Assembly (NCBI GenBank): GCA_017936785.1
Contig: JAGBEV010000025.1
Location: forward strand, 1 to 52,610
Source: Lachnospiraceae bacterium
Lineage (GTDB): Bacteria; Bacillota; Clostridia; Lachnospirales; Lachnospiraceae
DNA length: 52,610 bases
Reading direction: 5' to 3'
Shown: positions 8,090 to 37,273 of the stretch, one piece after another
How positions within the stretch are numbered: position 1 is the stretch's first letter
How the letters are laid out: each line of letters opens with the position of its first letter
The notes under the pieces: generated by a model
The model's input: the letters and a program-made list of their open reading frames with translations, nothing else
The model's database searches: none
What the model was told of the DNA's origin: nothing
Program-made: the position numbers and the translations under genes

Positions 8090-9259
8090 TCAAAGCATAT
8101 CCAGGATCTGCTTTACCCTGCAGTCATAGGTATGTTTTTCCTTAACTTTTTCATACCCGTTTTGGGCAATCTGTTTTCTCTTTTCTTCATGCTCCAGATA
8201 ATATGCTACCTTGGCATACAAATCTTCGGGTGTAGTATAAAACACATAATCCTCATCCGGTACAAACAATTCCCCAAAATCTGACTGAAAATCAGAAACC
8301 AAAAACCCGCCACAGCCCATAATATCAAAGGCACGCAAGGGAATTCCTGAATAAATACTTTTTAAGGAAATATTCAGATTGATCTGGGAATTTTTAAATA
8401 CATAAGGCATTTCATTACAATAATCCACCGGTCCCTTGTTATCCACATTGGAAAACTGCGGAGTAGGCTCCGGAGTATATAATTTTAACTGATGATCATT
8501 TCCGATATGTTCCAGTAACATGGTTCTCTCTCTGGCAGTTACCTGTCTTGCCAAAAAGTAATTGGCATACATCCATGCCTCTGACTGCATTTCATCCTCT
8601 TCTGCTATAAAAGGATATACTCGCTGCATGTCCGCAACAATCTCCGGTCTTAAAAACTTTTCTAATATGGGCATGGCATAAGATTGCAGCTGCATTCCCA
8701 TAAGTGCTTCCAGATACTGCCTGCTCTCCGGTCTGATGCCCTCTAAGTTTTTCATTAAATCCTGCCGTTCCTCCGTATATAAGGAACCTACAAAAGAGAC
8801 CTCCGACTGATATGTTTTACGAATAGCAGAACTGCTGTATAGTGAGTCATAATAATCCGTTGGTGCCGCCATTGGAAGATAATGGATTGTCCTTATCCCT
8901 TTTCCCCGCAGTTCTTCCACTGTTGCCTTATCAAAAACAAAGGCAAGGTTGGTATCAAATGCAATGGTAGTGGAATACAGGAACATGAAAGGGCTGTCAT
9001 AGGTCCAGGAAACATATTTGTCCCCTGTTTTATGACAGGCAAGTGCCACTGCCGGAAAATAATTAAATGAAAACACAAATTCATATTCATTTCCACCTAT
9101 ATGTTTTACAAGCCCGGCTTCAAATTCCTCATCATGCCGCATACTGATCTTTCCATAAGGCAATGGATACATTTCCACATCCATACCAGCCTTTTTCAGG
9201 CTTTCACATATATATTCTTCTCCAAAGCAGTCCCATTGCAAATACAGCACTCTTCTCAT
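8090..9259 (-). CDS. CgeB/DUF3880-type glycosyltransferase
   Basis: A 389-residue GT-B-fold protein. The N-terminal half matches the DUF3880 pattern (FVFSFNYFPAVALAC, then KYVSWTYDSPFMFLYS), and the C-terminal half the Glyco_trans_1_2 pattern (IPLRAFDIMGCGGFLVSDFQ, then LYAKVAYYLEHEEKR and the AQNGYEKVKEKHTYDCRV tail). CgeB-like enzymes are found in spore-coat and flagellin glycosylation loci. The gene starts 70 bases after the flagellin terminator with GAGGGAGC as ribosome site. Its position directly behind flagellin suggests it decorates the filament. The donor sugar is unknown. Confidence 0.85.
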   Translation of the reverse strand: MRRVLYLQWDCFGEEYICESLKKAGMDVEMYPLPYGKISMRHDEEFEAGLVKHIGGNEYEFVFSFNYFPAVALACHKTGDKYVSWTYDSPFMFLYSTTIAFDTNLAFVFDKATVEELRGKGIRTIHYLPMAAPTDYYDSLYSSSAIRKTYQSEVSFVGSLYTEERQDLMKNLEGIRPESRQYLEALMGMQLQSYAMPILEKFLRPEIVADMQRVYPFIAEEDEMQSEAWMYANYFLARQVTARERTMLLEHIGNDHQLKLYTPEPTPQFSNVDNKGPVDYCNEMPYVFKNSQINLNISLKSIYSGIPLRAFDIMGCGGFLVSDFQSDFGELFVPDEDYVFYTTPEDLYAKVAYYLEHEEKRKQIAQNGYEKVKEKHTYDCRVKQILDML

Positions 9260-9380: not shown

Positions 9381-10190
9381 TTACTGAAGTAAGGATAATA
9401 CGCCCTGGTTAGCCTGATTGGACTGAGCAAGCATTGCCTGACCTGCCTGAGCAAGGATGTTAGCATTGCTGTACTTAACCATCTCTGTAGCCATATCTGT
9501 GTCACGTACACGAGATTCAGCTGCTGTAGTATTCTCTACTAAGTTATCCAGGTTGTTGATTGTGTGCTCTAAACGGTTCTGTTTAGCACCAAGCTCGGAT
9601 CTCCAAGAAGAAATCTTCTCAAGACCTGCTCTAACCGATTTAAGTGCTGCTTTTGCTGCAGAGTTTGTAGAAATAGAAATTTTAGATCCACATACACCCG
9701 ATGCTGTTAAGCTGTGAGCTGTAATCTCAATATCTTCACTTGACTCAGTTTCACCAACAAAGATTTTTCTTGCTGTACTGTTAAAGATCTTCTGACCATT
9801 GAAGTTAGAATCTTTACCGATACGATCAATTTCAGTATTCAGGTTATCAATCTCATCATTGATGTAACCGATCTGAGTTGTGCTGTTTGTTCCGTTTGCA
9901 GCCTGTACTAACAGTTCGTTCATTCTCTGTAACATATCCTGAACTTCTGTTAAAGCACCTTCAGCAGACTGTGCAAAAGAAATACCATCCTGAGCATTTC
10001 TGGAAGCCTGTGTAAGACCTCTGATCTGACGTCTCATGGATTCGGAAATAGATAAACCAGCTGCATCATCTGCTGCACGGTTAATTCTGTAACCGGAAGA
10101 TAATTTCTCTGTTGACTTTGTCTGTGCGGTTGCTGTTAATCCCAGCATTCTGTTAGAGTTCATCGCTCTCATATTGTGTTGTACTACCAT
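9381..10190 (-). CDS. fliC: Flagellin
   Basis: Short flagellin of 269 residues consisting almost only of the conserved D0/D1 domains. The N terminus has VVQHNMRAMNSNRMLG, KLSSGYRINRAADDAAGLSI and the D1 segment LQRMNELLVQAANGTNS (87-103), which overlaps the region recognised by TLR5 in other flagellins. The C terminus is ILAQAGQAMLAQSNQANQGV-LSLLQ. The variable centre is only about 50 residues (roughly 135-185), rich in Ser/Thr, and includes a cysteine (Cys167), which is unusual in flagellins. These Ser/Thr residues are the likely O-glycan sites. A SigD-like promoter, a long leader with CsrA-type sites and a strong terminator surround it. It is secreted by the flagellar type III system after FliS binding. 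Confidence 0.97.
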   Translation of the reverse strand: MVVQHNMRAMNSNRMLGLTATAQTKSTEKLSSGYRINRAADDAAGLSISESMRRQIRGLTQASRNAQDGISFAQSAEGALTEVQDMLQRMNELLVQAANGTNSTTQIGYINDEIDNLNTEIDRIGKDSNFNGQKIFNSTARKIFVGETESSEDIEITAHSLTASGVCGSKISISTNSAAKAALKSVRAGLEKISSWRSELGAKQNRLEHTINNLDNLVENTTAAESRVRDTDMATEMVKYSNANILAQAGQAMLAQSNQANQGVLSLLQ

Positions 10191-10325: not shown

Positions 10326-10351
10326 ATATCGGTGGCTTTTGAAAATACTTA
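10326..10351 (-). promoter_or_regulatory. SigD (sigma-28)-type promoter of flagellin
   Basis: TAAG (10348-10351), 14-base spacer, ACCGATAT (10326-10333) on the minus strand. It is a close variant of the sigma-28 consensus TAAA-N15-GCCGATAA that occurs exactly at two other places in this window. No strong terminator is seen between the upstream LicD fusion gene and this promoter, so some read-through into flagellin is possible. Confidence 0.7.
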
Positions 10352-10430: not shown

Positions 10431-12959
10431 TTAAGCATTTCTCAAAATGTCATATATTATAGTTCCGGTCATCTTTTCCGGGGGCTTTTGCACAGACATT
10501 TTAACAGCCCGTATATGTTTCTCTAACTGCTCTATTGACTTTTCCGAAGTCTCATAAACTGTTTTTTCCTCCAATTCCTGATCAGGGACAACTGCCCCAA
10601 AGACCTCCTCTGATCCAGATGATACGGATTTTGTGGCTTTTCTATTCAACACTTCTACATTCTGGATCATAGACGGCATACCAGACTGCTTACAGATCCT
10701 GACAATGCTGGAAGGGTCTCCATAATAGCCGTCACTGATGCGGATTGCCTGATTCGACTCCGGTGCATCATCACAAATTCCCCAGCCTTCAGAACAATAT
10801 TCTTCCACCAGCCTATGATACCTCTTCCACAACTTCGGTCTTATGGTCTTTATTATTGTTTCCCTCTGTAAAACCGGCTGCCAAATCAGGGCAATATCTT
10901 CCCTTCTTTCCTTAAAGACCTCCAGAACATTTTTTATTTTAAAAAGCAGCTTCTCATCATGTTCCAGCAAAGCATCCGGATTAGTATGATATAAGATGAC
11001 TATCTTTTTTGTACCATCCGGCTTAAGCAAAATGTTTTCCCATTTGGCAGGAAACTTAATATCAGCTTTCTCCTCCAGTTCCTTGTCAAGCTTGGGAGAT
11101 CCCAGTCCTAAAATCTTCTTTTCCCATATGGGTCTGGTGTTATCACCGGCAAAATCTGTCAGAGCTTTTATATAACAACGTCGCATCTGCTCTGATTGTA
11201 AAATAACTTTATCCGCATGGATTACTCCCGGAACTGTACATATATGTTCCATGGTCGCAGCCGCATATTCATCCCAGTCCTTAAATTCGTCCAGAACAAA
11301 ATAAGGAATGTATATCAGATTTTCTGTAAATTTCTGCAATTCCCTGGAATAAAAAAACGGATGAACGCTGGCAGAAAAATTATATTCATCAAAGGGATTA
11401 TGTATAAATATCATATCCGGCTGATGTAAGCCAAAGTCAAAGGTCTTATAATCGGTTATGGATACATAATCCGGGTATTGATCTCCATCGTAATGCATTT
11501 TTCCCAAGCTGCCATCGATTGCCTTATCATAATACGGAATGGGAACCACATACACATCACAAGCCGTATCCGCACAGGCTGCTTTCCAAACACTTTCAAA
11601 AGAATCCCATGCTGAGGCTTTAAAAGGTAAAAACACTGCGGATCTGCGTAGTAAAACATCTTCCTGCGCCTTTTTTTCCAGCTTGGAAAGAATTTCTTCA
11701 AGCATCTCATTTAACGCATCTGCATCCACATTATCATTGACCAGAATCATCTCGTGAATATTATATAGGATTTCACAGTATTGCTCCAAAATACCGATGA
11801 CAGCCAATCCTTCTCCCTTGATCTCTTCTATTTTGGTCCCCAGGGCAATTGCTCCTTCCTGACAGCTTTCCAGAAGTTCTGCTGCTAAAGAGAAGTTCCC
11901 CTGTCCAATGGTATCCATAACACTTTTCTGGATGACTCTGAACAGCCGGAGCATTCCCTGAGTATATGTTTTTAAACTCCCCTTGTCTGCTGCCTCTGCT
12001 CTTTCCAGCTCTTTCTCTGAAAATGCATATTTCCCCAGTATTTGTCTGCCCTTTGTATCCAGTTCCCTCTCCTGCCGCTTGTAAAAAGGGTACTCATGAC
12101 CGCCACCACCCCGTAACAATTCCATATAGCATTTGTATTTGCATCTTAACGCAGCATCATATGAAGCCGGAACCGCTATCTGACCGGTCTCAAAGGGCAC
12201 CATAAGTGTTTCTTCATAATACTTGCGTGGAATTTTATAATCCCAGCGGGTACGTGATGCAATATTGGTAATATATTCTGAGCCTTCTCCTGTATATGTT
12301 CTTAATATCTGCTCTGAAAGCATGTAAACCTGCCGTTTTAATGGTTTTGTTCTATCAAATTTTACATCATAGGTTTTTTCTATCTGCTGCAAATATTCTT
12401 CCTGTTCCTCAGGCTTCATAATTCCGATCCCCAGACCCACAGTAGACAAAACCGAGATCTGTTCACACAGCATTTTGTCCTCTTCTTCATCAGGGGGAAT
12501 AAAATCCATGGGAAAAATATCCATTCCTGCCACATAAGGAAATCCATGAAATTTGTCCAGAAAAGGTTTATCCAACCGTATTCTGTTGCTGTTGTAAACA
12601 CGGATCAGATAATCATCACATTTAAAATCACCATCATCTGAGTGCTCAAAATTCAGAATTCCATATCCTTCAGGAAGTTCATCCAGTGCAACCTTCACGA
12701 ACATATCATAATCTTTTCTGGGCATACTGATATCCATATCATCATCCCATGGTATAAATCCCCCATGCCGAATGGCACCGATCAGAGTCCCCCAGTCGGC
12801 ATGATAATGAAGATCGTATTTCTCACATACTTTGGCAATATCCTCCAACACTTCCAGTTGTGCTGCCCATGCCCTTTTCATCAATCCCGGCACATAGAAT
12901 CCGTCTCTTACCTCATCTTCAAAAAAACTATTCGGAAACTGCATCTTATATTTCTCCAA
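10431..12959 (-). CDS. LicD phosphotransferase fused to a CDP-glycerol-transferase-like domain
   Basis: An 842-residue protein. The N-terminal domain (about 20-300) is LicD-like, with GTLIGAIRHGGFIPWDDDMD at 57-76. LicD enzymes transfer phosphocholine or similar phospho-groups from a CDP carrier to sugars. Residues about 320-440 are helical, and 440-800 resemble GT-B CDP-glycerol glycerophosphotransferases. This second half is clearly paralogous to the whole protein at 15287-16780: shared FLPFK, PYYDxxxDGSLGK, IHNPxDEYN, ILQSE and GSPKxDK. It has WQPVL at 694-698 where the paralogue has WRPHP, and GDPSS where the paralogue has SDYSS. The likely catalytic His is therefore absent and the domain may be structural or altered in specificity. 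It is the last gene of the phosphonate run and directly upstream of flagellin, so it is a candidate for adding a CMP-activated phosphonate to a glycan (inference). Confidence 0.85.
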   Translation of the reverse strand: MEKYKMQFPNSFFEDEVRDGFYVPGLMKRAWAAQLEVLEDIAKVCEKYDLHYHADWGTLIGAIRHGGFIPWDDDMDISMPRKDYDMFVKVALDELPEGYGILNFEHSDDGDFKCDDYLIRVYNSNRIRLDKPFLDKFHGFPYVAGMDIFPMDFIPPDEEEDKMLCEQISVLSTVGLGIGIMKPEEQEEYLQQIEKTYDVKFDRTKPLKRQVYMLSEQILRTYTGEGSEYITNIASRTRWDYKIPRKYYEETLMVPFETGQIAVPASYDAALRCKYKCYMELLRGGGGHEYPFYKRQERELDTKGRQILGKYAFSEKELERAEAADKGSLKTYTQGMLRLFRVIQKSVMDTIGQGNFSLAAELLESCQEGAIALGTKIEEIKGEGLAVIGILEQYCEILYNIHEMILVNDNVDADALNEMLEEILSKLEKKAQEDVLLRRSAVFLPFKASAWDSFESVWKAACADTACDVYVVPIPYYDKAIDGSLGKMHYDGDQYPDYVSITDYKTFDFGLHQPDMIFIHNPFDEYNFSASVHPFFYSRELQKFTENLIYIPYFVLDEFKDWDEYAAATMEHICTVPGVIHADKVILQSEQMRRCYIKALTDFAGDNTRPIWEKKILGLGSPKLDKELEEKADIKFPAKWENILLKPDGTKKIVILYHTNPDALLEHDEKLLFKIKNVLEVFKERREDIALIWQPVLQRETIIKTIRPKLWKRYHRLVEEYCSEGWGICDDAPESNQAIRISDGYYGDPSSIVRICKQSGMPSMIQNVEVLNRKATKSVSSGSEEVFGAVVPDQELEEKTVYETSEKSIEQLEKHIRAVKMSVQKPPEKMTGTIIYDILRNA

Positions 12960-12973
12960 TTCTTAAGCATGAC

Positions 12974-14095
12974 TTAGTTAATATGTTTCATAAACTCTGC
13001 TTTATTTTCTACCGCACTTTCAACAGGTCTTCCAAGATCCTTTCTGGAATCCATTGCCACCTTGATTTCCACAAAAGACAATCCCGCCCTGTTTAAAATT
13101 TGTGGGAATGCCTTGTCCAGTTCATGATAACTTTCGATCACTTCAGAATGCTCATATCCCAGATCTTTGGCATTTTTCCAATAATCCGGTGCCGCCCCTG
13201 TGGGCATCCCGCCTACAGATTCATGAGCTTCGTTATTCAAACATATATGTACCATATTTTTAGGTTTTTGTTTGCCAAGAAACGCCATGGAGCCCATGTG
13301 CATCAGCACAGCACCATCCCCCTCAATACAAATCACCCTTTTATGAGGATTTTCCACGGCAATTCCAAAGGCGATCATGGAAGCATGTCCCATTCCTCCC
13401 ACAGTCAAAAAGCATTCTGAATGTCCGCCAAATATCCGGTTGCTCTGTTCATACACTTCCCTGGAAATTTTTCCCGTAGTGGATACCACAATATCTTTTT
13501 CACCCAGACTGCCCAGAATCTTCCTGATGGCATCTTCCCGGATGATAGAATATGTATTTTCATAGCTTCCTGCTTCTTCTTCCTCAAAAGCTCCCGGCGC
13601 CGCAACAATGGCATATTGCTTATTGCCATCCAGACATTTCCTTGCCTGCCGGAAAACAATTTCCAGTTCTTCTTTCGTCGTTTCCGAAGAAATCACAGCA
13701 TAAGGTATGGATAAGACGTCCAGCATGGGAAGCGTAATCTCTCCCATAAATTTGTGCTGGGGTTCATCTTTTCTTCCGGGCTGCCCCCTCCAACCGATCA
13801 GAAGCAGCATGGGAATATCATATACCTTTTCATTGGCAAGGGATGTAATGGGATTTACCGTATTTCCCAATCCGCTGTTCTGCATATAAATACACGCAGG
13901 ATTGCCGGAAGCCAAATAGCTCCCAATGGCAATTCCAACTGCCGCCCCTTCATTTGCCGGAACAAAATGACAAAAAGAAGGGTCCAGATGGGTATTAACA
14001 TAATTACAAAAGGGCTTTAATGCCGAATCGGGCACTCCTGCTATTGTATGGATATGTAATTCTTTTAATTTTTCAATCAAAAAACCTACTTGCAT
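12974..14095 (-). CDS. aepY: Phosphonopyruvate decarboxylase
   Basis: Thiamine-diphosphate enzyme that decarboxylates phosphonopyruvate to phosphonoacetaldehyde, the irreversible step that pulls the PEP mutase equilibrium toward C-P bond formation. The 373-residue length fits Ppd. Visible motifs are GVPDSALKPF and VPANEGAAVGIAIG near the N terminus (the Glu that activates TPP), NSGLGNTVNPITSL, and the C-terminal TPP/Mg site EGDGAVLMHMGSMA-x-LNNEAHESVGGMP. The ATG at 14095 is chosen because CAGGAG lies ten bases upstream, leaving a 13-base gap after the preceding dehydrogenase gene. A PEP mutase gene four genes upstream in the same run supports the assignment over other TPP enzymes such as sulfopyruvate decarboxylase. 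Confidence 0.93.
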   Translation of the reverse strand: MQVGFLIEKLKELHIHTIAGVPDSALKPFCNYVNTHLDPSFCHFVPANEGAAVGIAIGSYLASGNPACIYMQNSGLGNTVNPITSLANEKVYDIPMLLLIGWRGQPGRKDEPQHKFMGEITLPMLDVLSIPYAVISSETTKEELEIVFRQARKCLDGNKQYAIVAAPGAFEEEEAGSYENTYSIIREDAIRKILGSLGEKDIVVSTTGKISREVYEQSNRIFGGHSECFLTVGGMGHASMIAFGIAVENPHKRVICIEGDGAVLMHMGSMAFLGKQKPKNMVHICLNNEAHESVGGMPTGAAPDYWKNAKDLGYEHSEVIESYHELDKAFPQILNRAGLSFVEIKVAMDSRKDLGRPVESAVENKAEFMKHIN

Positions 14096-14108
14096 TTTTA
14101 CGCTCCTG

Positions 14109-15290
14109 TTATTGTTGAATCGTTGGCTTAATAATTTCATTGATCAATATCTCAGCAACAGAATCAATCTGCCCGAAAGGCACTTCCTTGGGAAGGCAGA
14201 CTCCAAATCTGTCTTTTACCTTGTTTAGCAGACTGTCCGTATAGATGAGTCTGCCGCCTTCTACATTTTCTATTCCATCAAAGGCGATAGATTTTCTATT
14301 TGCTTTTCTCATATCTTCCATGGAAAATACAGATGTATCTATTCCCATCTCCACATTGTTTCCGGATGCATCTATGATGACCGGATAACCTCCGATCTCT
14401 CCAAATGCCCCAGGAGAGAAAAACCGCTTAACGCTTTTTCCTCTTATTGCATCTATGATCTTGCATATGATGTCATAATTGCTGGAAGCATTCATGATAT
14501 TCCTTTTTCCATCTACAGGCATGGCTATTTTGCATCTTTCAAAAACTGCCTTCTGGTCCAGCTGCACTTCCTTTCCCTCATAGAAAATTTTCAGAAGCTG
14601 TTCCATTCCTTCCGTATGCCCTTCTTTACTGATGACCACATCATGAAAATGAGCTGTAGCCAGCATAACATCCACATTCCAGAAATCTTCTATTCCCATC
14701 ATTGTGGCTGCCGCATATTTGATACGGGGAACCAGATGATTCAGGTTGCCGCTTCCAAAGTCAGGATAATTCTTTCCCGCAGTCTTTAGCCAGGGAATTA
14801 CCGCATCAGAATAAGAGGTATTTATGATAATGGCTTTGGAATCCACCATGGAAATGGCTTCCATCAAATTTTTAATATACTTAATGGATAAGGGACTCCA
14901 TATACCATATGCTCTTAAATTGGTCCAGGAAATGCTTCCGTATTTTAATCCGGAGTAGACACGGCTGGAATTAACGATAAAATCCGGCTCATGCTTTTTG
15001 ATAACCTCTGCCATTTGGGCTGCATTGTTAAAATCCACATTGGATTCCATGGTAACATGAGATTTATTTAATCCCCTGATCAATGCGCCGATCCGGACAA
15101 TATTTACATTGCTTTCCATCTTTTCTGCGCTGCGTCCCACAACTACTATTTTGAGCGCTTCATCATTCCTGCTTAAAAGATAATCCAGTAAATAGGTCCC
15201 TACACTGCCAAGTCCCATGATCATAACCGTAATACTGTTTTCCGTTATATGTTCTTCTAAAGCACTCAATTTTTCTTTCAAATCTTTCAT
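14109..15290 (-). CDS. NAD(P)-binding Rossmann oxidoreductase of the phosphonate cluster
   Basis: A 393-residue protein with an N-terminal dinucleotide fold (TVMIMGLGSVGTYLLDYLLS, 22-41, then VVVGRS) and a large second domain that I cannot place in a named family. Other visible stretches are VNSSRVYSG, IIINTSYSDAVIPWL and FFSPGAFGEIGGYPVII. It has no YxxxK short-chain dehydrogenase signature and no iron-alcohol-dehydrogenase motifs. It lies between the CDP-glycerol-type transferase (overlapping it by four bases, ATGA) and phosphonopyruvate decarboxylase. A role on phosphonoacetaldehyde or a later intermediate is therefore plausible, for example reduction to 2-hydroxyethylphosphonate. That role is inference; no aminotransferase for aminoethylphosphonate is present in the window. 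Confidence 0.6.
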   Translation of the reverse strand: MKDLKEKLSALEEHITENSITVMIMGLGSVGTYLLDYLLSRNDEALKIVVVGRSAEKMESNVNIVRIGALIRGLNKSHVTMESNVDFNNAAQMAEVIKKHEPDFIVNSSRVYSGLKYGSISWTNLRAYGIWSPLSIKYIKNLMEAISMVDSKAIIINTSYSDAVIPWLKTAGKNYPDFGSGNLNHLVPRIKYAAATMMGIEDFWNVDVMLATAHFHDVVISKEGHTEGMEQLLKIFYEGKEVQLDQKAVFERCKIAMPVDGKRNIMNASSNYDIICKIIDAIRGKSVKRFFSPGAFGEIGGYPVIIDASGNNVEMGIDTSVFSMEDMRKANRKSIAFDGIENVEGGRLIYTDSLLNKVKDRFGVCLPKEVPFGQIDSVAEILINEIIKPTIQQ

Positions 15291-16780
15291 TCCTGATTCT
15301 CCCTGTTTTCTATTATTTTCATGATTGCTTTATGTGTTTTCAGTCCACAGGTTCCATCCCCGTTTGCTACGGATTTTTCTGCAAACATTATTCTCTCTTC
15401 CTGATTATCATCGGCTTCATTTTTTATCATTTTAATAAAATCGATTACTTCCACACCGTCAGAAACAAAATAATTGGAAAAATAATCACAAAACACTTCA
15501 TTTTCCCGGTACTTTCTGCATCCTTCTAAAAGTAATACAGGCTTTCCTGAAAAAGTGTACTGTAATACCAGCGAACTATAATCACTGATCATACCATCAG
15601 AAGCAGCTACAGCATCCATATAATCCTCACTCAGATCCAAAATCCCGTTTTCTGCTGTTTCCACTTTTTGACAGATCTTCTCATATTCTTCCAGATATTC
15701 CGCTTTCAAAGACCGTATGGTCTGAGCTAATAAAGGATGAGGTCTCCAGATCAATACCATATCCTCATCTGACAACACCTGTTCCACAATACCATCCACA
15801 TGCCCCAGCCAGTCTTCCTGATTCAAAAAGGTACTCAGACCGGAATTCAACAGCAGGACTTTCTTCCCGTCTGTCATCTGCCGCCATTCATCTTTTTCCT
15901 TTCTGCCCTTTTCCCGCAATTCACACATCTTATCTATTTTAGGACTTCCTGTTACGATCAGCTTTTCACCTGTTATTCCGCAATGCTCATAAGCTGCTTT
16001 CAATTTTTCTGATTGCAGGATGATATAATCACTGCAAAAGGCTCCTTTTGTCCTGCAGGAAGAAGCCATATTATCAAATTTCAGACAATAACCTGATAGA
16101 TAATAAGGAACATATACTAAAACAGCGCCGCATTTCTTGATTTTTTCCATAAAAAATGCCGGAGCAATACAGGTCACTTTATTGTATTCATCATAGGGAT
16201 TATGAATATATACTATATCCGGCTGCTCCGCCTCCAGATCATAACTTTGATAATCCATAATTCCTGTTTCCTCAGGGAAAAAATCCCCTTCATAGCGAAA
16301 TTTTCCCAGGCTTCCGTCCTGTTCTCTATCATAATACGGAACGGGAATTACCTGACAATCACAATTTTTATCCTCACATGCCGCCTTCCATATGCTTTCC
16401 ATACAGTCCCACATGGAATATTTGTATGGAAGAAACGCAACCTTTATCTTTACATCCAACTGCTCTGCATATTGCCATATCTCAAGCAGTTTCTTATTGC
16501 AGTTATTCCACAATCCGGCAGCATCATTTCTATTTATAACAGCTTCCCCAAGCCGGTAAACAATCTCACAATATTTCTCCAGCCCGCTTATTAAGGACAC
16601 ATGAGGTTCATCCTGTTCCTCCACCGTTTGACCGATTTCCATTGCCGCTTCCTGCAGTTGTGCAAACCACTCAAATAAAACACTTTTTTCCTCTATCTGC
16701 CATCGTTCTTCAATAACCTTCTGCATATCCTTCATGAGGTTTAAAGTTTTCATGATCTCCCGTTTTAACAGCAATCTCAT
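15287..16780 (-). CDS. CDP-glycerol glycerophosphotransferase-like enzyme
   Basis: A 497-residue protein with a helical N-terminal region (1-110) followed by a GT-B fold of the TagB/TagF type. GSPKIDK (278-284), WRPHP (345-349, the probable catalytic His) and SDGMISDYSSLVLQYTFSGK (394-413) match the nucleotide-binding part of that family. Such enzymes move a phospho-alcohol from a CDP carrier. In this setting the donor could be a CMP-activated phosphonate rather than CDP-glycerol, since no glycerol-phosphate cytidylyltransferase stands alone here (inference). Start choice is uncertain: the first ATG has no clear ribosome site, and ATGs at codons 10 and 16 are alternatives. It is paralogous to the C-terminal half of the LicD fusion downstream. 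Confidence 0.8.
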   Translation of the reverse strand: MRLLLKREIMKTLNLMKDMQKVIEERWQIEEKSVLFEWFAQLQEAAMEIGQTVEEQDEPHVSLISGLEKYCEIVYRLGEAVINRNDAAGLWNNCNKKLLEIWQYAEQLDVKIKVAFLPYKYSMWDCMESIWKAACEDKNCDCQVIPVPYYDREQDGSLGKFRYEGDFFPEETGIMDYQSYDLEAEQPDIVYIHNPYDEYNKVTCIAPAFFMEKIKKCGAVLVYVPYYLSGYCLKFDNMASSCRTKGAFCSDYIILQSEKLKAAYEHCGITGEKLIVTGSPKIDKMCELREKGRKEKDEWRQMTDGKKVLLLNSGLSTFLNQEDWLGHVDGIVEQVLSDEDMVLIWRPHPLLAQTIRSLKAEYLEEYEKICQKVETAENGILDLSEDYMDAVAASDGMISDYSSLVLQYTFSGKPVLLLEGCRKYRENEVFCDYFSNYFVSDGVEVIDFIKMIKNEADDNQEERIMFAEKSVANGDGTCGLKTHKAIMKIIENRENQE

Positions 16781-16788
16781 CCCGATAC

Positions 16789-17538
16789 CTATAAGTCCCT
16801 CTCACATCGCTCAAAATCATTTCTCGTATTACAGTTTATCCAATATTTTATACGCATGATCTCAACATTTTTTCTATCCGCTTTATTAAAGTATCTTTCA
16901 ATGAACTTTAAATTCGTTCCCTGCCATTCTTCTTCCGGCATTTCTTCCATTACAGCTTCTACAATATTTCTTTCAGACATTTTCCAAATCTGCCCCGAAT
17001 TATATATTTTGTAAAAAGGTTCTGTAATCACAAAAAAGCCATGAGAAGTATCATACTGATACTTTATCTCATCCTTATCATTGGTATATAAAATGACTGA
17101 TCTGGCAGAACAGATGTCCTCACAATTTACAGTAATGCAATTTTTCTCCGACTGCCTGATCATCTCAAAACTTTCTTCATCTACTGCCAGATCCCCTTCC
17201 GCAAACAGGATCTCTGAACAATCCTGATTTTCCAGGCATGCCTTCATTCCAACAAAAAGGCTGTATCCCGAACCATACTTTTCAAAAAAGGGATTGTAAA
17301 CCGTTTCGATTAAAAATGGGAATTCCCCTTCAAATTCATGGATATATGTCTGCAGGGAATCAAATTGGTATCCTCCCACAACAATCACCTTGTCATATCC
17401 TACACACTTTTTTAGCATGGAATATAAAAGGGTTTTTCTCTTTTCTTTATGATAAAAGATACATTTCAATCTGGGATGCTCCATATCCCTGTTAAATCTT
17501 TCTGAACAGCCTGCAACTGTAATAATGGCACATTTCAT
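16789..17538 (-). CDS. LicC/PntC-like nucleotidyltransferase
   Basis: A 249-residue GT-A-type nucleotidyltransferase. The N terminus KCAIITVAGCSERFNRD replaces the usual LAAGxGxRM loop, followed by KCIFYHKEKRKTLLYSMLKK, IVVGGY and FAEGDLAVDEESF with the metal-binding Asp. The size and pattern resemble CTP:phosphocholine cytidylyltransferase LicC and the PntC enzymes known to make CMP-2-aminoethylphosphonate. It sits between an SDR gene (five-base gap) and the CDP-glycerol-type transferase (eight-base gap), within a run containing PEP mutase. CMP activation of a phosphonate headgroup is the best guess. Substrate identity is not visible in the sequence. Confidence 0.75.
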   Translation of the reverse strand: MKCAIITVAGCSERFNRDMEHPRLKCIFYHKEKRKTLLYSMLKKCVGYDKVIVVGGYQFDSLQTYIHEFEGEFPFLIETVYNPFFEKYGSGYSLFVGMKACLENQDCSEILFAEGDLAVDEESFEMIRQSEKNCITVNCEDICSARSVILYTNDKDEIKYQYDTSHGFFVITEPFYKIYNSGQIWKMSERNIVEAVMEEMPEEEWQGTNLKFIERYFNKADRKNVEIMRIKYWINCNTRNDFERCERDL

Positions 17539-17542
17539 TTTA

Positions 17543-18541
17543 TCAATCCTTTTTGCTCATATGGTAATCAGCACATCTTTTTATTCCTTCATTCAAGGAA
17601 ACCATAGGACTCCAATTCGTTCTTTCCCGCAGTTTTTTAGAGGATAACAGTCTCCGTTCAGGATCTGCGGATCGATACCCTTCAAATTCTATTTGATAGT
17701 CCTCCAGATTCAAAGCCTTTGCACAAATGTCTACCAATTCCAAAATAGATACTTCTTCTTCGGTAGCAACATTGTATACAGAACCATCCAAAGTATTTTT
17801 ACCCTCTATTACTGCAAGCACAGCCTGGCAGCTGTCAAAATTATGTAAAAATGTCCTTTTATTCTTCCTTGAATTTTCCAATAGCGTAACAGACTGTTTT
17901 TCCAGCAGACTGGTAATGATATGCGGAATAATATGTTTTGCATATAATTCATTGTCACTGTATACATTTGCAAATCTCAGAGAACATCCTTTGATTTTTC
18001 CCTTATCCACAGCATCTTTCATAAAAAATTCCGTCAGCAGTTTTCCCGCAGCATAACTGGTTCTTTGACTATGTTCGGCAGTTGCGAATAAAATGTAATC
18101 TTCTTCACTTACACCGCCTTCATTCCAGGACTGCATGGAATACACTTCCGAAGTGGAGCAATTGATATAAGCATCAGCGCCCACCCTGATCGCCTGTTCC
18201 AAAAAGCTTCTCATTCCCAATACATTTGTCTGAAAGGTAGCCTCAACATCATAAAAGTATTCTGTATGGACTACGGCTGCGCAGTTGATATACACTATTC
18301 TTCCATAGTTATCCTTCTCCAACGCCACCCTGTTTTCCAATTCTTTCATTGCCATTTCATCATTGATATCCCATTCAAAAAAATTCATGGCATCCTGATC
18401 CAAAATATCCTGAATTGTGTGGAGCGATGACGCAAAAAAATTATCAAATCCTATAACCGTTCCGCCTTTAGCAATGATCTGACGGGCAAGTTCATTTCCC
18501 GTCATTCCGGTAACACCGCTTATAACAAATAATTCTTTCAT
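17543..18541 (-). CDS. Extended SDR, NAD-dependent epimerase/dehydratase
   Basis: A 332-residue extended short-chain dehydrogenase. Motifs: GVTGMTG nucleotide loop at 9-15, ID/FDNF near residue 36, INCAAVVH near residue 85, INCSTSEVY near residue 127, catalytic YAAGK near residue 163, and RFANVYSDN near residue 190. The family acts on nucleotide-sugars; a UDP- or CMP-sugar 4-epimerase, dehydratase or reductase would fit. The neighbours are PEP mutase upstream and a nucleotidyltransferase downstream, so it might instead act on a nucleotide-activated phosphonate. Specificity cannot be read. Confidence 0.85.
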   Translation of the reverse strand: MKELFVISGVTGMTGNELARQIIAKGGTVIGFDNFFASSLHTIQDILDQDAMNFFEWDINDEMAMKELENRVALEKDNYGRIVYINCAAVVHTEYFYDVEATFQTNVLGMRSFLEQAIRVGADAYINCSTSEVYSMQSWNEGGVSEEDYILFATAEHSQRTSYAAGKLLTEFFMKDAVDKGKIKGCSLRFANVYSDNELYAKHIIPHIITSLLEKQSVTLLENSRKNKRTFLHNFDSCQAVLAVIEGKNTLDGSVYNVATEEEVSILELVDICAKALNLEDYQIEFEGYRSADPERRLLSSKKLRERTNWSPMVSLNEGIKRCADYHMSKKD

Positions 18542-18557
18542 GATGATTCACCTCAAT

Positions 18558-19853
18558 TTATTTTACGGGTATTAATGATAAAATTTCTTTAATGGACAGG
18601 CACTCCTGACTTGCCTCATAGCACCGCTCATTTTCCAAAATGGAACAAGCTGCCTTTTTCATTGCAGGAAATGCTGCGCGCAACAAATGATTAGCATAAA
18701 TGACAATATTAAATCCATGCGCCTTCAACTGATCTTCATATACACGATTATAGGTTGTGGGAACTGCCACCAAGGGAATATCCGCATATTTGCTCTTAAA
18801 ACGATCGGCAAATTCAAAAATCTCATCGGGTTCTGCAGCCCTGCTGTGTATCATAATGCCGTCAGCTCCGGCTTCTACGTATGCAAATGCTCTCTCCAAT
18901 GCGTCTTCCACACCCATTTCCAATATCAGGCTTTCCACCCTGGCTATGAGCATGAAATTTTTGGAAAGCACGGATTCTTTTCCTGTCTTTATCTTCTGGC
19001 AAAAATTCTCTATGGTGTCCTGATGCTGCTCAACTTCATTTCCCAACAGGGAATTTCTCTTCAGACCGATCTTGTCCTCAATAATGACCGCAGAAACTCC
19101 TACCCGCTCCAGAGTTTTGATATTATACGCAAAATGCTCGATCAGCCCTCCTGTATCTGCATCAAAAATAATAGGCTTGGTTGTCACTTCCATAATGTCT
19201 TCCAGATTCCTGATTCTGGATGTCAGGTCCACCAGTTCAATATCCGGTTTCCCCTTAACTGTGGAATCACAAAGACTGGACAGCCAGATACCGTCAAACT
19301 GCTTTCTCTTTCCGTTATTCTCCACAGAGGTTTTTTCAACCAGCAGCGCACTCAAACCGTCATAGGCAACCATGACCTTAACCATTTCGCCTTTGCGGAT
19401 CTTCATTCTCAACCTTTGTCTTCGCAGCTCCGGTAGTCCCCTGCTGTCCTGCATATAGCTGTCAAATAAGGAAAGTCCTTCATTCTTATAATAGGGAATC
19501 TCTATGATCTGTCCGCCCCACTCCTGCAAAACCTTTGCCGCTCTCTCTTTTACTTCTTTTTGATAGCCCCTGTTCCAGTTGTCTCCGTGTATCACATAAT
19601 CCGGCTTGATCTTCCTGAGATTTTCATCATAAAAAATATCATTTTGAATGATTACATGTGTTACACCTTTAATATTCTCAATGATCTTCATGCGTTCTTC
19701 CAATGGGATGATCGGAGGCTTTTCATATATGGCAACATATTCATCTATCAGGACTCCTACCGTTACTTCACCATATTCAGCAGCTCTTTTAATAATATTG
19801 ATATGACCTGTATGAATAATATCTGTAGACAAACACATATATACCTTTTTCAT
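18558..19853 (-). CDS. pepM: Cytidylyltransferase-phosphoenolpyruvate mutase fusion
   Basis: A 431-residue bifunctional enzyme. Residues 1-135 are a TagD/GCT-type nucleotidyltransferase with HTGH (14-17) and IHGDNW (88-93). Residues about 155-431 are a PEP mutase of the isocitrate-lyase superfamily, including FDADTGG (230-236) and the diagnostic EDKIGLKRNS (259-268), matching the EDKxxxKxNS signature that separates PEP mutase from PEP hydrolases and methylisocitrate lyases. The mutase isomerises PEP to phosphonopyruvate, forming the C-P bond. The fused domain probably adds CMP to a later phosphonate. The gene begins one base after the metallophosphoesterase stop and has GAT/AAG-rich spacing but no strong ribosome site, which suggests translational coupling. 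Confidence 0.95.
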   Translation of the reverse strand: MKKVYMCLSTDIIHTGHINIIKRAAEYGEVTVGVLIDEYVAIYEKPPIIPLEERMKIIENIKGVTHVIIQNDIFYDENLRKIKPDYVIHGDNWNRGYQKEVKERAAKVLQEWGGQIIEIPYYKNEGLSLFDSYMQDSRGLPELRRQRLRMKIRKGEMVKVMVAYDGLSALLVEKTSVENNGKRKQFDGIWLSSLCDSTVKGKPDIELVDLTSRIRNLEDIMEVTTKPIIFDADTGGLIEHFAYNIKTLERVGVSAVIIEDKIGLKRNSLLGNEVEQHQDTIENFCQKIKTGKESVLSKNFMLIARVESLILEMGVEDALERAFAYVEAGADGIMIHSRAAEPDEIFEFADRFKSKYADIPLVAVPTTYNRVYEDQLKAHGFNIVIYANHLLRAAFPAMKKAACSILENERCYEASQECLSIKEILSLIPVK

Positions 19854-19854
19854 C

Positions 19855-20586
19855 TTATATCCCCCTTTTTATCCGTTCTCTGTAAAATGCATCCACTGCA
19901 TCTGAGTATTTCCGAACTTCTGATTCTATATCATATTTTACCGCCATAAGCTCAACTGTTCCATTATCCCCGTCTAATATTGCAAACTGGGCATTGGGAT
20001 TATGATTTCTGGGTTGTCCCACAGAACCGGGATTGATAAAAACAGTTCGTTTTTTATACCGGAATTCCTCCTGGTCGCTCTCATAAAAGTGCTGGTAAAC
20101 ATGAGGGATATGGGAATGCCCTGAAAACACATACTCATATTCCCGATATTTCAAAGCGCATTCACCTGCTACAATGCTTTTCCAGAAAACATCCTCTAAA
20201 GACCCATGGACTGCCAGACACTTTTTTCCGTTTATAGAGAATTCATATATTCCCTCTTTCGTCATGCAATTTAAATAATCCATTGATGCCTGTGTTAATT
20301 GTTTTCTTGTATACCTTGCCGATACCGCTCCCCGTTCACTGGAAAAATGCCTGTAATCCTCATTCATAATAGCATTTTCATGATTCCCCCAGATATTGAC
20401 CACAATCATTTCCTGTGGGATATCCCCTATCCTTTTAATAACTTCATTAGAACCGGGACCATAATCAATCAGATCCCCTAACAGGATAATTCCCTCTATA
20501 TCCTTATTTGCAACTGATTTCAGCACTTCATCCAATGCAGTTATATTTCCATGAATATCCGATAAAATCAAAATTTTTTTCATCAT
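19855..20586 (-). CDS. Calcineurin-like metallophosphoesterase (YfcE/DR1281-like)
   Basis: A phosphoesterase of about 243 residues with the full set of metal-binding motifs: LSDIHGN, LLGDLIDYGPGS, WGNHE, AVHGS and FSGHSHIP, ending in the FINPGSVGQPR strand typical of the YfcE-like group. The first ATG of the open frame (20631) lacks a ribosome site. I place the start at the tandem ATGs at 20586/20583, just before KKILILSD where the family normally begins; a TTG at 20595 with AAGGGG upstream is another option. It follows the flagellar chaperone gene after about 60 bases and precedes pepM. It may hydrolyse a phospho- or nucleotide intermediate of the glycan pathway, or be unrelated housekeeping. 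Confidence 0.8.
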   Translation of the reverse strand: MMKKILILSDIHGNITALDEVLKSVANKDIEGIILLGDLIDYGPGSNEVIKRIGDIPQEMIVVNIWGNHENAIMNEDYRHFSSERGAVSARYTRKQLTQASMDYLNCMTKEGIYEFSINGKKCLAVHGSLEDVFWKSIVAGECALKYREYEYVFSGHSHIPHVYQHFYESDQEEFRYKKRTVFINPGSVGQPRNHNPNAQFAILDGDNGTVELMAVKYDIESEVRKYSDAVDAFYRERIKRGI

Positions 20587-20647
20587 TTCTTTCAAAAGAT
20601 TATGCCCCTTCTCACACAGGAGCAGAGGCATAAAAATTTTACCTGCT

Positions 20648-21121
20648 TTATTTTTTCTTATCTAAAAAATATGAATCCACATATTTCAGATTATTACTTG
20701 TTTTATAATAGTCCGAAACCGCTTTCATGGATGTTTTCTTTTGAGAAAGCTCTCTTCTGCTTTTTACTAAAGCAACCGATAACTTATCCTTAGTCCGTGC
20801 CTCTGTAGCATGAATCTGTGCGCCCAGATCCACAGTGTTTTTGATCAGCTTCTGCAGCACTGCGATTTCCGTTTTGTATTGTTCCTTTTTTTCCGGCAGT
20901 TCATCCCTGATATGCTGATAGGTACTGTCAAAGCCTTCGTCCAGCTTCTCCATTTCTGCAAGCAGTTCTGTCTTATCATCTACCAGTCCGTCAAACTTTT
21001 CCGTATCCAGACTGTCTGCGCCTGCCAGCTCCAGCTGCATTTTGCTCTTATCCAGTATTTGCTGCAGTACCTTTTCTTTTTTCTGCAGCGCTTCTTTCAA
21101 CAACTGTAATTCGTTCGTCAC
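20648..21121 (-). CDS. FlgN/FliT-like flagellar export chaperone
   Basis: A 157-residue, highly helical and charged protein. It overlaps the fliS stop by four bases (ATGA), the position occupied by fliT in many flagellar operons. Heptad-like leucines (LLKEALQKKEKVLQQILDK and the LLAEMEKLDEGF region) and the C-terminal YYKT..YVDSYFLDKKK resemble FlgN/FliT family chaperones of Clostridia. It would keep a filament-cap or junction protein (FliD is likely by position) soluble before export. Assignment rests on context and helical pattern rather than a sharp motif. Confidence 0.65.
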   Translation of the reverse strand: MTNELQLLKEALQKKEKVLQQILDKSKMQLELAGADSLDTEKFDGLVDDKTELLAEMEKLDEGFDSTYQHIRDELPEKKEQYKTEIAVLQKLIKNTVDLGAQIHATEARTKDKLSVALVKSRRELSQKKTSMKAVSDYYKTSNNLKYVDSYFLDKKK

Positions 21122-21507
21122 GCTTCCGATCCTTTCTCAGCCAGCTTCATAACTTCCTTCCACGTATCCCGGATCATTCTGGTATATTCCAGCGCTCTTT
21201 CCAGTTCATCCTTATTTTTTTTAATATTTCCCTGGATCAAAGCCTGCATAATACATCCGTAAATATTTTCGAAATCCTTGGAAACAGGATATTTATCATT
21301 GAGAGTTGCCGACAGATGGTCGATAATTCTCTCCGCTTTTATAATATTGTTATTGGCTTTTTCATAATTCTTTTCATCAATCGCCCCTATAGCGATATTG
21401 ACAAATTTAATAACACCATCATAAAGCATTAAGGTCAATTCTGCAGGAGAAGCTGTCAAAATTTTACTGTTCTGATATTTTGCGTACGGATTTCCAACTA
21501 TCGCCAT
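21118..21507 (-). CDS. fliS: Flagellin export chaperone FliS
   Basis: A 129-residue four-helix protein, the usual FliS length. Family hallmarks: NPYAKYQNSKILTASPAELT at 6-25, LMLYDGVIKF, AIDEKNYEKANNNIIKAERI and the C-terminal TWKEVMKLAEK. It binds the C terminus of flagellin in the cytosol and delivers it to the export gate; in Bacillus it also frees FliW for CsrA control. It follows fliD by 55 bases and overlaps the next chaperone gene. The ribosome site is a modest AAGGAGT before the ATG. Confidence 0.95.
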   Translation of the reverse strand: MAIVGNPYAKYQNSKILTASPAELTLMLYDGVIKFVNIAIGAIDEKNYEKANNNIIKAERIIDHLSATLNDKYPVSKDFENIYGCIMQALIQGNIKKNKDELERALEYTRMIRDTWKEVMKLAEKGSEA

Positions 21508-21562: not shown

Positions 21563-23077
21563 TTATGAAGTGAAAAGTCCGCTGATGGCATTCTGTTTGG
21601 AAGACAGCTTTGCAAGGGCTGTTTCCATTGCAGAAAACTTTTCATACCATTTATCTTCATATGCAGTTAAAGCTTCCTCTGCTTCTGAAATTTTGGTTTC
21701 ATAATCACTCAGCTCTTTATCTAACTGCTGGTCGTTGTATACTTTATACATACTCTTAAAGTCCTGCACTCTTTCCATGGTCGTTGTCATGGAATTATAC
21801 AAATTGTTGGACAATTGTGTAAAGAAACTCTTAACCGTCTCCGGATCGCTGGCGATCATGGATTTTAAAACATCTGTATTGCCTGAAACTGCAGAATCAT
21901 TAGGATCTCCGTCAATATGATATGCATGTCTTTCATTCTCTTCGGAGTTAAAATAACCCAATGTGCTGATTCCAAAGCTGGATAAGTACATTTCCTTGCC
22001 GTTTACTGTCACACTGCCCATCATGGTAGTAGTCATTGCAGAAATAACGGAACTGAGAGAAGAGTCTCTTCTAAGCAGGGAACCCTTGATCTTGTTTTCC
22101 CAATCTTCAACCTCCGATTCAGATAATGCTTCTTTCTCTTCGGAAGTCAAAGGCTCATACCCTTTAGAAGACTCTGCATTATACAGTTTATCCATTTCAT
22201 TGACCAGCTTATTATACTCTGTAAAGAAATTCCTGATCGTATCATAAATGCCATCATAATCATCAGTAGTAGTAATGCTGGTCTCTTTTAAGGTTCCGTC
22301 TGCATTTTTGTCGGAAACAGCATTTACTGTATATGTGGTTCCATTGATCTGGAATGTATTGGTATCGGATTCAAATTTTGCTCCATTCAGATATAAAACA
22401 GCATCAGAGCCGTCAATCTTAACAGCTCCGTCCGGATTGCCCGGATCTTCTACAAGACCTAATGTCTTTAATGCACTGTCATCTCCGCTGAAAGAAAAGT
22501 CATTGGCTTTTCCGGTTTCTTTAGCACTGATAAACAATCTCTGCTGTGTTTCATCAAAGTTGGCATTGACTCCCGCAGCACTTAACTGGCTTACCAGTCC
22601 TGACATGGTAGTATCATCTCCGATGGTGATCTCTGTATCCTTGCCGCCGGATGTAATGGTAAAGGAAGTGCCTGCAGCGATTCCCAGATCTGTTACTTTG
22701 GTATCTCCTGTAACTTTTCCGCCGTCTGCAGTCTTTAATTTGCCCCCTGTCAGATATCCTGCCTTTGCCAGACTTTCAACACTTGCAGTCTGTACGCCGT
22801 TTACGGATTTTTCTCCGGAAACAACAGTTAAAAGACCACTGTCGGAAACTGTTGATTTTTTCTTAACATAGGCATTGTCAAAACGCAGTTTATCAACAGT
22901 ATTTCTATACAGGCTGAATATCTTGGTGTTTAATTCCTTCCAAGCATCTACCTTCCAGCTCAGTTTGGTTCTTTCCTTCTTTAAATTATCAACAGATACC
23001 TTTTTTGCGCTGACAAGCTCTGTGATAATGCTTTCTGTATCCAGTCCGGAATTCAATCCTGTTATTCTGATCGCCAT
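21563..23077 (-). CDS. fliD: Flagellar filament cap protein FliD
   Basis: A 504-residue filament cap (HAP2). The N terminus RITGLNSGLDTESIITELVS is the classic FliD_N start, with LSWKVDAWKELNTKIFSLY following. The C-terminal FliD_C region includes DYDGIYDTIRNFFTEYNKL-x-EM, LGISTLGYF-like SSFGISTLGYF, and the coiled end YETKISEAEEALTAYEDKWYEKFSAMETALAKLSSKQ. It caps the growing filament and catalyses flagellin assembly. GGAGGGGATATC precedes the ATG. It is the second gene of the SigD operon after flaG, with an 11-base gap. Confidence 0.97.
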   Translation of the reverse strand: MAIRITGLNSGLDTESIITELVSAKKVSVDNLKKERTKLSWKVDAWKELNTKIFSLYRNTVDKLRFDNAYVKKKSTVSDSGLLTVVSGEKSVNGVQTASVESLAKAGYLTGGKLKTADGGKVTGDTKVTDLGIAAGTSFTITSGGKDTEITIGDDTTMSGLVSQLSAAGVNANFDETQQRLFISAKETGKANDFSFSGDDSALKTLGLVEDPGNPDGAVKIDGSDAVLYLNGAKFESDTNTFQINGTTYTVNAVSDKNADGTLKETSITTTDDYDGIYDTIRNFFTEYNKLVNEMDKLYNAESSKGYEPLTSEEKEALSESEVEDWENKIKGSLLRRDSSLSSVISAMTTTMMGSVTVNGKEMYLSSFGISTLGYFNSEENERHAYHIDGDPNDSAVSGNTDVLKSMIASDPETVKSFFTQLSNNLYNSMTTTMERVQDFKSMYKVYNDQQLDKELSDYETKISEAEEALTAYEDKWYEKFSAMETALAKLSSKQNAISGLFTS

Positions 23078-23088: not shown

Positions 23089-23514
23089 CTATCGCCTTTC
23101 ATCTACTAAAATACCTGCCATCTCCCAAACCTTTGCGATCATATCAAGGGTTTTTTCCGGGGGCAGTTCTTTGATTACCTTCTTTGTATCTTTGTCCACG
23201 ATCTTAATGGTAAGTCTCTGTGTTGCCTCATGAATACCGAATACAGCTTCTGAATTGGTCATGCTCTTATTGAGTTTCTCAACCGCCTGCTTGATCTGTT
23301 CATTGCTGGGCTGCTGATTTTGGTATTGGGCATCGTTGGATGCGCCTTCTTCCTTACCCTGAACCTGACTGACAACTGCTGTTGTTTCATCCGGTGCAAC
23401 TTTACTGGTCTGCAGATTCGCTTCCGTGCTTCCTGCTGCAGGTTGTACAGGCTCAACCTTTTGTACTGCCTGTGTCTGGATTGTCATAATACTTCCTAAT
23501 GGTTCAATTGCCAT
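23089..23514 (-). CDS. flaG: FlaG-family flagellar protein
   Basis: About 141 residues: a low-complexity, Gln/Ala/Thr-rich N-terminal half and a conserved C-terminal FlaG domain (FGIHEATQRLTIKIVDKDTK, then VIKELPPEKTLDMIAKVWEM-x-GILVDERR). FlaG proteins affect filament length and are secreted late. The ATG at 23514 has GGAGG ten bases upstream; a start five codons earlier would overlap that site. It is the first gene after the consensus SigD promoter at 23585-23611. Confidence 0.92.
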   Translation of the reverse strand: MAIEPLGSIMTIQTQAVQKVEPVQPAAGSTEANLQTSKVAPDETTAVVSQVQGKEEGASNDAQYQNQQPSNEQIKQAVEKLNKSMTNSEAVFGIHEATQRLTIKIVDKDTKKVIKELPPEKTLDMIAKVWEMAGILVDERR

Positions 23515-23584
23515 TTTTTCCACCTCCATGTGAATTTTACCTAAAGTAATGCGCCTAAAGCTTCTGATACGCTTCTTAGTATTT

Positions 23585-37250: not shown

Positions 37251-37273
37251 GTTCTTTGCCCTTTTCCCCATTT

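Follow-up and report, generated by a model that had tools for sequence, protein, structure and literature searches.

Phosphonate genes within a flagellar block

The stretch of DNA considered here ("the window") corresponds to bases 1 to 52,610 of contig 3 in the 3.41-Mb genome (G000) of a gut Lachnospiraceae bacterium, an assembly flagged as 8.77% contaminated. On the minus strand, a flagellar block running through flgN, two flgK-type genes, a flagellin-domain gene at the flgL position, fliW, csrA, flaG, fliD, fliS, and the gene for a 157-residue protein (unk157) is followed by eight genes, here called "the cassette," and then by flagellin. Four of the eight constitute a "module" that recurs at other phosphonate loci and looks, from its pattern of occurrence, like a third option for processing phosphonoacetaldehyde, in place of the usual enzyme. 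In minus-strand order, the cassette genes are as follows.

19855..20586, minus strand: calcineurin-like metallophosphoesterase (MPE), first module gene (PF12850, 74.7 bits)
18558..19853, minus strand: cytidylyltransferase domain (PF01467) fused to phosphoenolpyruvate (PEP) mutase (PF13714), "PntC-PepM"
17543..18541, minus strand: extended short-chain dehydrogenase/reductase (SDR) of the epimerase/dehydratase type, second module gene (PF01370, 102.3 bits)
16789..17538, minus strand: DUF6564 protein of predicted nucleotidyltransferase fold, third module gene (PF20202, 270 bits)
15287..16780, minus strand: GlyP, a CDP-glycerol/TagF-type phosphotransferase (PF04464, 52.1 bits)
14109..15290, minus strand: SacDH, a Rossmann oxidoreductase, fourth module gene (PF03435, 30 bits)
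12974..14140, minus strand: phosphonopyruvate decarboxylase (Ppd; TIGR03297, 443.5 bits)
10431..12944, minus strand: LicD phosphotransferase with a GlyP-like C-terminal half (PF04991, 116.7 bits)

The genes named in a preliminary description of this interval are present there on the minus strand, as Pfam matches and two family cut-offs confirm: the mutase domain scores 399.6 bits against 319.55 for TIGR02320, and Ppd scores 443.5 bits against 312.5 for TIGR03297. The mutase also aligns with EDKIGLKRNS, an instance of the EDKXXXXXNS motif that defines PEP mutase in PMC6697681. The description's "two cytidylyltransferases" was right in kind, but the two differ, one being a PF01467 domain fused to PepM and the other a free DUF6564 protein whose nucleotidyltransferase fold comes from a model. 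Its inventory, correct as far as it went, passed over the SDR, the Rossmann oxidoreductase, the absence of PhnW, and the MPE, of which it gave only the end coordinate, 20586. A weak second PEP-mutase Pfam match at 33044-33895 is a ketopantoate hydroxymethyltransferase and not a phosphonate gene.

Among solved structures, the PntC-PepM fusion matches 5x3d (E 1.4e-38) and 1m1b (E 2.8e-37), the first of which is listed as a PEP phosphomutase and is presumably the Fom1 domain; the entry nearest to the MPE is 3rqz (E 4.1e-18), and the top match of the SDR is the UDP-glucose 4-epimerase 7k3p (E 1e-14). The LicD protein and GlyP are 33% identical over 439 columns. The single direction and short gaps reported earlier hold: taking the longest open reading frames, the gaps from FlaG-FliD through LicD range from -32 to +55 nt. 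Better starts are 20586 or 20583 rather than 20631 for the MPE, which leaves 61 nt on its 5' side, and ATG 12944 rather than TTG 12959 for LicD, which is separated from flagellin by 240 nt. A chimeric assembly is unlikely because the same order from flgK to LicD, cassette behind fliS included, recurs in the separately assembled closest relative found, a locus labelled Lachnospiraceae (L004, from genome G006 of the same genus) whose PepM is 84% identical. Nor does base composition mark the cassette as recent foreign DNA, with gene GC contents of 0.357-0.429 against 0.399 for the window and no island signature.

The module and the fate of phosphonoacetaldehyde

Pathways to surface phosphonates usually convert phosphonoacetaldehyde either to 2-aminoethylphosphonate (2-AEP) by PhnW or to the alcohol by an iron-dependent alcohol dehydrogenase (Fe-ADH). 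The window contains no relative of PhnW, and neither G000 nor G006 has a match to TIGR03301 at E<=1e-20, so that the transaminase by which a 2-AEP pathway would be recognized, in the cluster or in the genome, was not found. Across 10 genomes with the module, none has a TIGR03301 match above the cut-off, and G726 and G483 hold weaker relatives. Likewise, no Fe-ADH relative lies in the window, where an iron-dependent phosphonoacetaldehyde reductase beside PepM would signal a pathway to hydroxyethylphosphonate (HEP); the whole genome was not searched for this enzyme.

The distribution of these alternatives was examined by clustering the neighbors of PntC-PepM at 80 loci, the best 80 of 326 confirmed relatives of the window's own fusion and thus a biased sample. 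PhnW-type genes occur in 37 loci and Fe-ADH-type genes in 16, and both occur together only in locus L025. The cluster names rest on four of the 37 PhnW members and one of the 16 Fe-ADH members, and the exact substrates of these clusters are uncertain because scores fall below the cut-offs (223 against 423.7 for TIGR03405 in the Fe-ADH member, 248.6 against 360.8 for the PhnW of L025). The module of phosphoesterase, SDR, DUF6564 protein, and SacDH was found in 18 of the 80, two of them incomplete in the stretch examined (L005, without SacDH and Ppd, and L006, with SDR and DUF6564 only). Within the locus stretches, PhnW or Fe-ADH accompanies none of the 18 module loci versus 52 of the 62 others (Fisher 3.7e-11), leaving 10 of the 62 with neither. 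When the comparison is limited to loci that extend 5 kb or more in each direction, the corresponding fractions are 0/9 and 37/39 (P 3e-8). These are the cluster-based counts; a stricter single-query count at 150 bits over 86 distinct loci (the 80, the window, and newly fetched loci) gave PhnW in 29, Fe-ADH in 8, SacDH in 23 including L025, and none of them in 26.

Genome searches place the module proteins in the company of PepM. When 397 family genomes were searched twice, DUF6564 and full-length SacDH turned up in the same five, all of which have PepM; DUF6564 is absent from 14 control genomes. Five of the 41 family genomes matching the SacDH profile at E<=0.001 have full-length matches above 590 bits, and the other 36 were dropped as matches of about 18-27 bits to the Rossmann part only. 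SacDH was also found in five of 391 genomes of the class. PepM adjoins in the window, G796, G726, and G612; in G483 the module and PepM are on different contigs. In G359, PepM and DUF6564 share a contig while SacDH is split over two. On a PntC-PepM tree of 87 rows, 10 changes of the module label are required, of which well-supported branches force at least seven, so the link between the module and PepM is not strict. Locus L082 illustrates this with an apparent recombination of PepM and module, its SacDH and module being close to those of the window and its PntC-PepM falling inside the PhnW clade.

A pathway can be sketched from these observations. PEP mutase is predicted to convert PEP to phosphonopyruvate and the decarboxylase to yield phosphonoacetaldehyde, both steps resting on family models scored above their cut-offs. 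SacDH, with the phosphoesterase, the SDR, and the DUF6564 protein, would then carry phosphonoacetaldehyde to the final headgroup, replacing PhnW or Fe-ADH, as their mutual exclusion suggests. The cytidine monophosphate (CMP) adduct would be made by the PepM-fused cytidylyltransferase domain, by the DUF6564 protein, or by both, to judge from family and fold.

Structure prediction bears on the last two of these steps. A model of the DUF6564 protein (predicted local distance difference test, pLDDT, 93.6), built on an alignment (A2) that included two rows from outside DUF6564, folds like nucleotidyltransferases: the top Foldseek match is the PntC-AEPT fusion 6pd2 (E 6.8e-11, TMq 0.69), and LicC/choline-, inositol-, and sugar-phosphate nucleotidyltransferases match about as well. 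Profile matches of A2 to LicC (E 4e-10) and PntC-AEPT (E 2e-7) were discounted because of those two rows; a profile of DUF6564 rows alone matched only LicC 1jyk (E 0.0012), and the protein has no match at E<=0.001 to PF12804, the nucleotidyltransferase type of PntC, whose preferred substrate is AEP. For SacDH, a model from an 18-row alignment (A1; pLDDT 90.8) resembles malate/lactate dehydrogenases best.

Some of the evidence tells against a replacement of the usual enzyme by the module. The fold match of SacDH is weak overall (TMq about 0.5), and by sequence nothing in the PDB is significantly similar, the best profile matches, at E 0.015, being a carboxyspermidine dehydrogenase and a Gfo/Idh/MocA protein. 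In addition, L025 combines a distant SacDH relative (31% identical) and a phosphoesterase with both PhnW and Fe-ADH. It was not accepted as a module locus, having no SDR or DUF6564 match and a very long tree branch, and is counted among the 62 others; it nonetheless speaks against strict exclusion.

A different use for the module must also be considered, in which it supplies a nucleotide-activated partner of its own, for example a CDP-polyol or a sugar, while an enzyme elsewhere in the genome acts on phosphonoacetaldehyde. The combination of a phosphatase, a nucleotidyltransferase, and oxidoreductases is one expected of a CDP-alditol pathway, the DUF6564 model fits nucleotidyltransferases for sugar and inositol phosphates almost as closely as it fits PntC, and the SDR resembles enzymes of nucleotide sugars. 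This explanation seems unlikely in view of the absence of PhnW and Fe-ADH from all 18 module loci (no whole-genome search for Fe-ADH was made), the TIGR03301 results given above, and the restriction of DUF6564 and SacDH, in the family searches, to genomes with PepM.

Equally unlikely, in our estimate, is that the cassette makes HEP, with SacDH acting simply as an aldehyde reductase and the Fom1-like domain forming CMP-HEP. The likeness of the SacDH model to malate/lactate dehydrogenases speaks for this, as does the standing of 5x3d as the best solved relative of the fused domain. Fom1 itself acts on HEP, according to PMC6697681. The residues of the fused cytidylyltransferase domain were compared in 76 of the 87 rows, leaving out ten with neither enzyme and one with both. 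At position 44, lysine is found in all 15 Fe-ADH rows and in 5x3d versus none of the 25 module rows. At position 92, asparagine is found in 25/25 module and 34/36 PhnW rows, versus aspartate in 14/15 Fe-ADH rows and in 5x3d. These two positions, which were picked after the list was seen, argue against HEP, but 20 of the module rows lie inside the PhnW clade, where descent alone explains their residues. The remaining five rows, the clade of the window, have the Fe-ADH-type residue at positions 9 (serine, 5/5), 18 (isoleucine, 4/5), and 27 (3/5), which counts against an amine in this clade, whereas positions 30 and 88 agree with one. The clade also groups with Fe-ADH rows on the tree, on a long branch whose placement is unsure. 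The residue evidence on the headgroup is thus mixed, and an amine-bearing product is possible.

The flagellar setting of the cassette

The flagellar genes and signals around the cassette, with the glycosyltransferases beyond flagellin, are listed here.

23586..23611, minus strand: SigD-like site TAAA-N16-CCGATA 5' of flaG, an exact match in the CsrA-FlaG gap
23089..23529, minus strand: FlaG (PF03646, 103 bits)
21563..23077, minus strand: FliD filament cap (PF07195, PF02465)
21118..21507, minus strand: FliS flagellin chaperone (PF02561, 120.7 bits)
20648..21121, minus strand: unk157, 157-residue protein 3' of fliS (no Pfam match)
20600..20633, minus strand: terminator- or attenuator-like hairpin in the gap between unk157 and the cassette (-17.1 kcal/mol, z -2.0)
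10327..10351, minus strand: SigD-like site TAAG-N15-CCGATA 5' of flagellin
9381..10190, minus strand: flagellin, 269 residues (PF00669, PF00700)
8090..9259, minus strand: DUF3880-type glycosyltransferase (PF13524, PF12996)
4777..6741, minus strand: GT2 glycosyltransferase with a methyltransferase domain (PF00535, PF13489)

The preliminary description proposed that enzymes of phosphonate synthesis, CMP activation, and LicD/TagF-type transfer stand in a flagellar operon, and this is supported by SigD-like sites whose positions recur in relatives and by the linkage of PntC-PepM to flagellar genes elsewhere. Of the 86 distinct loci, 11 have a flagellar gene no more than about 10 kb from PntC-PepM, and in each of them it is co-directional (the window, L004, L006, L018, L032, L042, L056 by FlgK, L071, L073, L082, and L139; 12 of 88 when the duplicates L097 and L144 are included). 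Flagellins are confirmed by Pfam in L018, L032, L071, L073, L139, and L082, the last a C-terminal piece at the locus edge. This is above a rough chance expectation of 1 to 2.4 loci, calculated with guessed densities, and the linked loci occupy several branches of the PepM tree. Within the sample of 80, linkage is found in 5 of 18 module loci versus 4 of 62 others (P 0.024). Judged by gene content, loci L018 (1318-9128) and L071 (5166-12751; Oscillospiraceae) present a separate flagellin-phosphonate neighborhood that lacks the SacDH module. It has flagellin, PntC-PepM, a radical SAM-cytidylyltransferase fusion, for which the scan covered L018, and a protein some 676 residues long that in L018 has no Pfam match.

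Relatives within the genus indicate what the site holds when the cassette is absent. Only two of nine genomes have pepM, and unk157 also follows fliS in G006, G008, G005, G002, G003, and G004. In the sister species G008 and G005, without pepM, the order is fliS-unk157-LicD-flagellin, with a LicD 53% identical to that of the window over 765 columns (as are those of L098 and L099); the flagellins of the two are nearly identical, so that the pair may count as one case. Relative to this layout, seven additional genes lie between unk157 and LicD in the window. In G003, also without pepM, the order is fliS-unk157-flagellin-LicD; the contig of G004 stops after unk157, the FliS match is weak in G001, and G007 has no FliS match. 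In G002, which lacks pepM as well, three tandem LicD/GlyP-related genes stand behind fliS-unk157 (L100:984-5582), one matching the entire LicD protein of the window, one its LicD half only, and one its GlyP half only, an arrangement that suggests splitting and fusion of the two domains. Beyond flagellin, relatives of the DUF3880-type glycosyltransferase adjoin flagellin in L098, L099, L139, and L006, and relatives of the GT2-methyltransferase protein lie 3' of flagellin in L098 and L099.

The SigD-like sites, matched to what we take to be the SigD consensus, do not exceed chance by count in the window (for the flaG site, two or more matches turned up in 16 of 100 shuffled sequences); it is their positions that carry the argument. 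The flaG site is identical in sequence in L004, at -89 from flaG, and similar sites precede flagellin in L098, L099, L101, L042, L073, and L139.

The reading toward which we lean, by a little, is that the cassette makes a CMP-activated phosphonate that is most likely put on a glycan of the flagellar filament. GlyP, the LicD-GlyP protein, or both would transfer the phosphonyl moiety of the CMP adduct to a flagellin sugar laid down by the neighboring glycosyltransferases, as position and analogy suggest. The cassette occupies the place behind fliS where sister species have LicD and flagellin. Flagellin as the target and the identity of the headgroup are both inferences.

A competing destination, a wall teichoic acid-like or capsular polymer, is in our judgment rather unlikely; the flagellar position would then reflect motility-linked expression or a convenient insertion site. 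In its favor, most bacterial phosphonate capacity tailors cell surfaces (PMC6697681). Six module loci (L010, L011, L014, L016, L039, and L043) hold a cluster-4 gene, and the one member scanned, that of L010, is a YidC-domain/PF04464 fusion. Several findings count against the flagellin reading, and the first of them also favors the polymer. Of 25 rows, made up of 24 module loci plus L025, 19 lack flagellin in the locus stretch, or 18 when L004 is set aside for its other flagellar genes, and the module is therefore not flagellum-specific. LicD occupies the site without pepM in the sister species and so need not be the phosphonate transferase, and on the cassette contig of G006 a distance of about 33 kb separates the cassette from the flagellin downstream of it. 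The Poisson probability of at least 10 linked loci ranges from 8e-8 to 0.008 with the assumed density, and that of at least six independent events from 5e-4 to 0.21; many of the 12 genomes behind the loci have several flagellins, which makes the low densities too kind. Finally, hairpins after unk157 in three species, in the window as in L004 (about 9160-9225; -13.7, z -1.0, then seven T) and L098 (870-935; -17.0, z -3.7), in otherwise different sequence, may terminate or weaken transcription ahead of the cassette and argue against a simple single transcript. Against the polymer stand the position of the cassette inside the fliS block in both the window and G006, the adjacency of the LicD at that site to flagellin in sisters without pepM, and the spread of flagellar linkage over the PepM tree.

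Other parts of the window are of separate interest. A second glycan cluster at 34960-43781 on the minus strand encodes two FkbM methyltransferases, a CTP_transf_3 cytidylyltransferase, a ribulose-phosphate epimerase, HAD and PMI-like proteins, a DAHP-synthase-family protein, a methyltransferase, an MptE-like protein, and a LicD. By content it looks like a pathway of the ulosonic-acid type with a Maf-like transferase, as we take the MptE-like protein to be. Type I restriction-modification S and N6-methylase-type genes lie at 48938-52089, and an open reading frame at 101-706 matches a PDDEXK transposase below the cut-off (24.2 versus 27.4 bits).

Known systems and the meaning of the module

The assumption in the preliminary description that no flagellin phosphonate glycan had been described does not hold. 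In Clostridium difficile, the type A flagellin glycan carries 2-AEP on GlcNAc, as found by mass spectrometry, although the species was negative for pepM in a large survey and the source of its AEP is unknown (PMC8861647). The placement of a phosphonate on the filament, plausible here, was thus partly anticipated, and what is added is the module where PhnW or Fe-ADH would be. The flagellin glycan genes cd0240-cd0244 resemble the cassette in having a proposed CTP-using nucleotidyltransferase, CD0242, and the TagF-like CD0244, which have been proposed to make CDP-threonine and transfer from it to flagellin GlcNAc (PMC8861647 and PMC10714395); transfer in the window would proceed similarly. By family only, the cassette likewise brings a transferase of the PF04464/TagF type and a protein of nucleotidyltransferase fold together at a flagellin locus. 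Unlike C. difficile, the cassette encodes PepM and a decarboxylase. It has a calcineurin-type phosphoesterase rather than the phosphoserine phosphatase-like CD0241 of type A and no methyltransferase like CD0243, the only such domain nearby being that of the GT2 protein at 4777-6741; neither a CD0241-like phosphatase nor a CD0243-like methyltransferase is among the cassette's Pfam matches.

Other systems share parts of this logic. The b-type glycan of Pseudomonas aeruginosa PAO1 (pa1088-pa1091) also uses a glycosyltransferase and a phosphotransferase for a phospho-linked flagellin group, but the group is N,N-dimethylthreonine, and the word "phosphonate" is absent from PMC11833859. The PntC/Pnt clusters of Treponema denticola and relatives pair PepM with a cytidylyltransferase near LicD-like phosphotransferases (PMC6697681); the cassette differs in its fused PF01467 domain, its free DUF6564 protein, and its lack of PhnW/AEPT, and "flagell" does not occur in that paper. 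Fom1 of the fosfomycin pathway, in the same source, likewise has an N-terminal PF01467 cytidylyltransferase fused to PepM, but the cassette departs from 5x3d at residues 44 and 92, follows Fe-ADH loci at residues 9 and 18, and belongs to a flagellar locus and not to an antibiotic cluster. Among the literature matches listed (titles and the starts of abstracts, with most subscription papers outside), none describes pepM in a flagellar locus, and the literature searched contained no paper on DUF6564.

The broadest proposal compatible with these data is one that we put forward tentatively, as possible but short of probable: that the module is a third, undescribed route from phosphonoacetaldehyde to a new headgroup, possibly amine-bearing, with two cytidylyltransferases, which in several lineages of gut Clostridia is produced within the flagellin block and presented on the filament. 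Among the papers searched, flagellin phosphonate is known from a single study by mass spectrometry, and the species concerned has no pepM; if the proposal is true, bacteria such as this one could supply the 2-AEP seen on that flagellin. The module exposes two uncharacterized proteins, DUF6564 and SacDH, that seemingly replace the usual step, and a pepM cassette in the fliS-flagellin block offers genetic access to the questions of why and how bacteria would place C–P groups on filaments sensed by their hosts.

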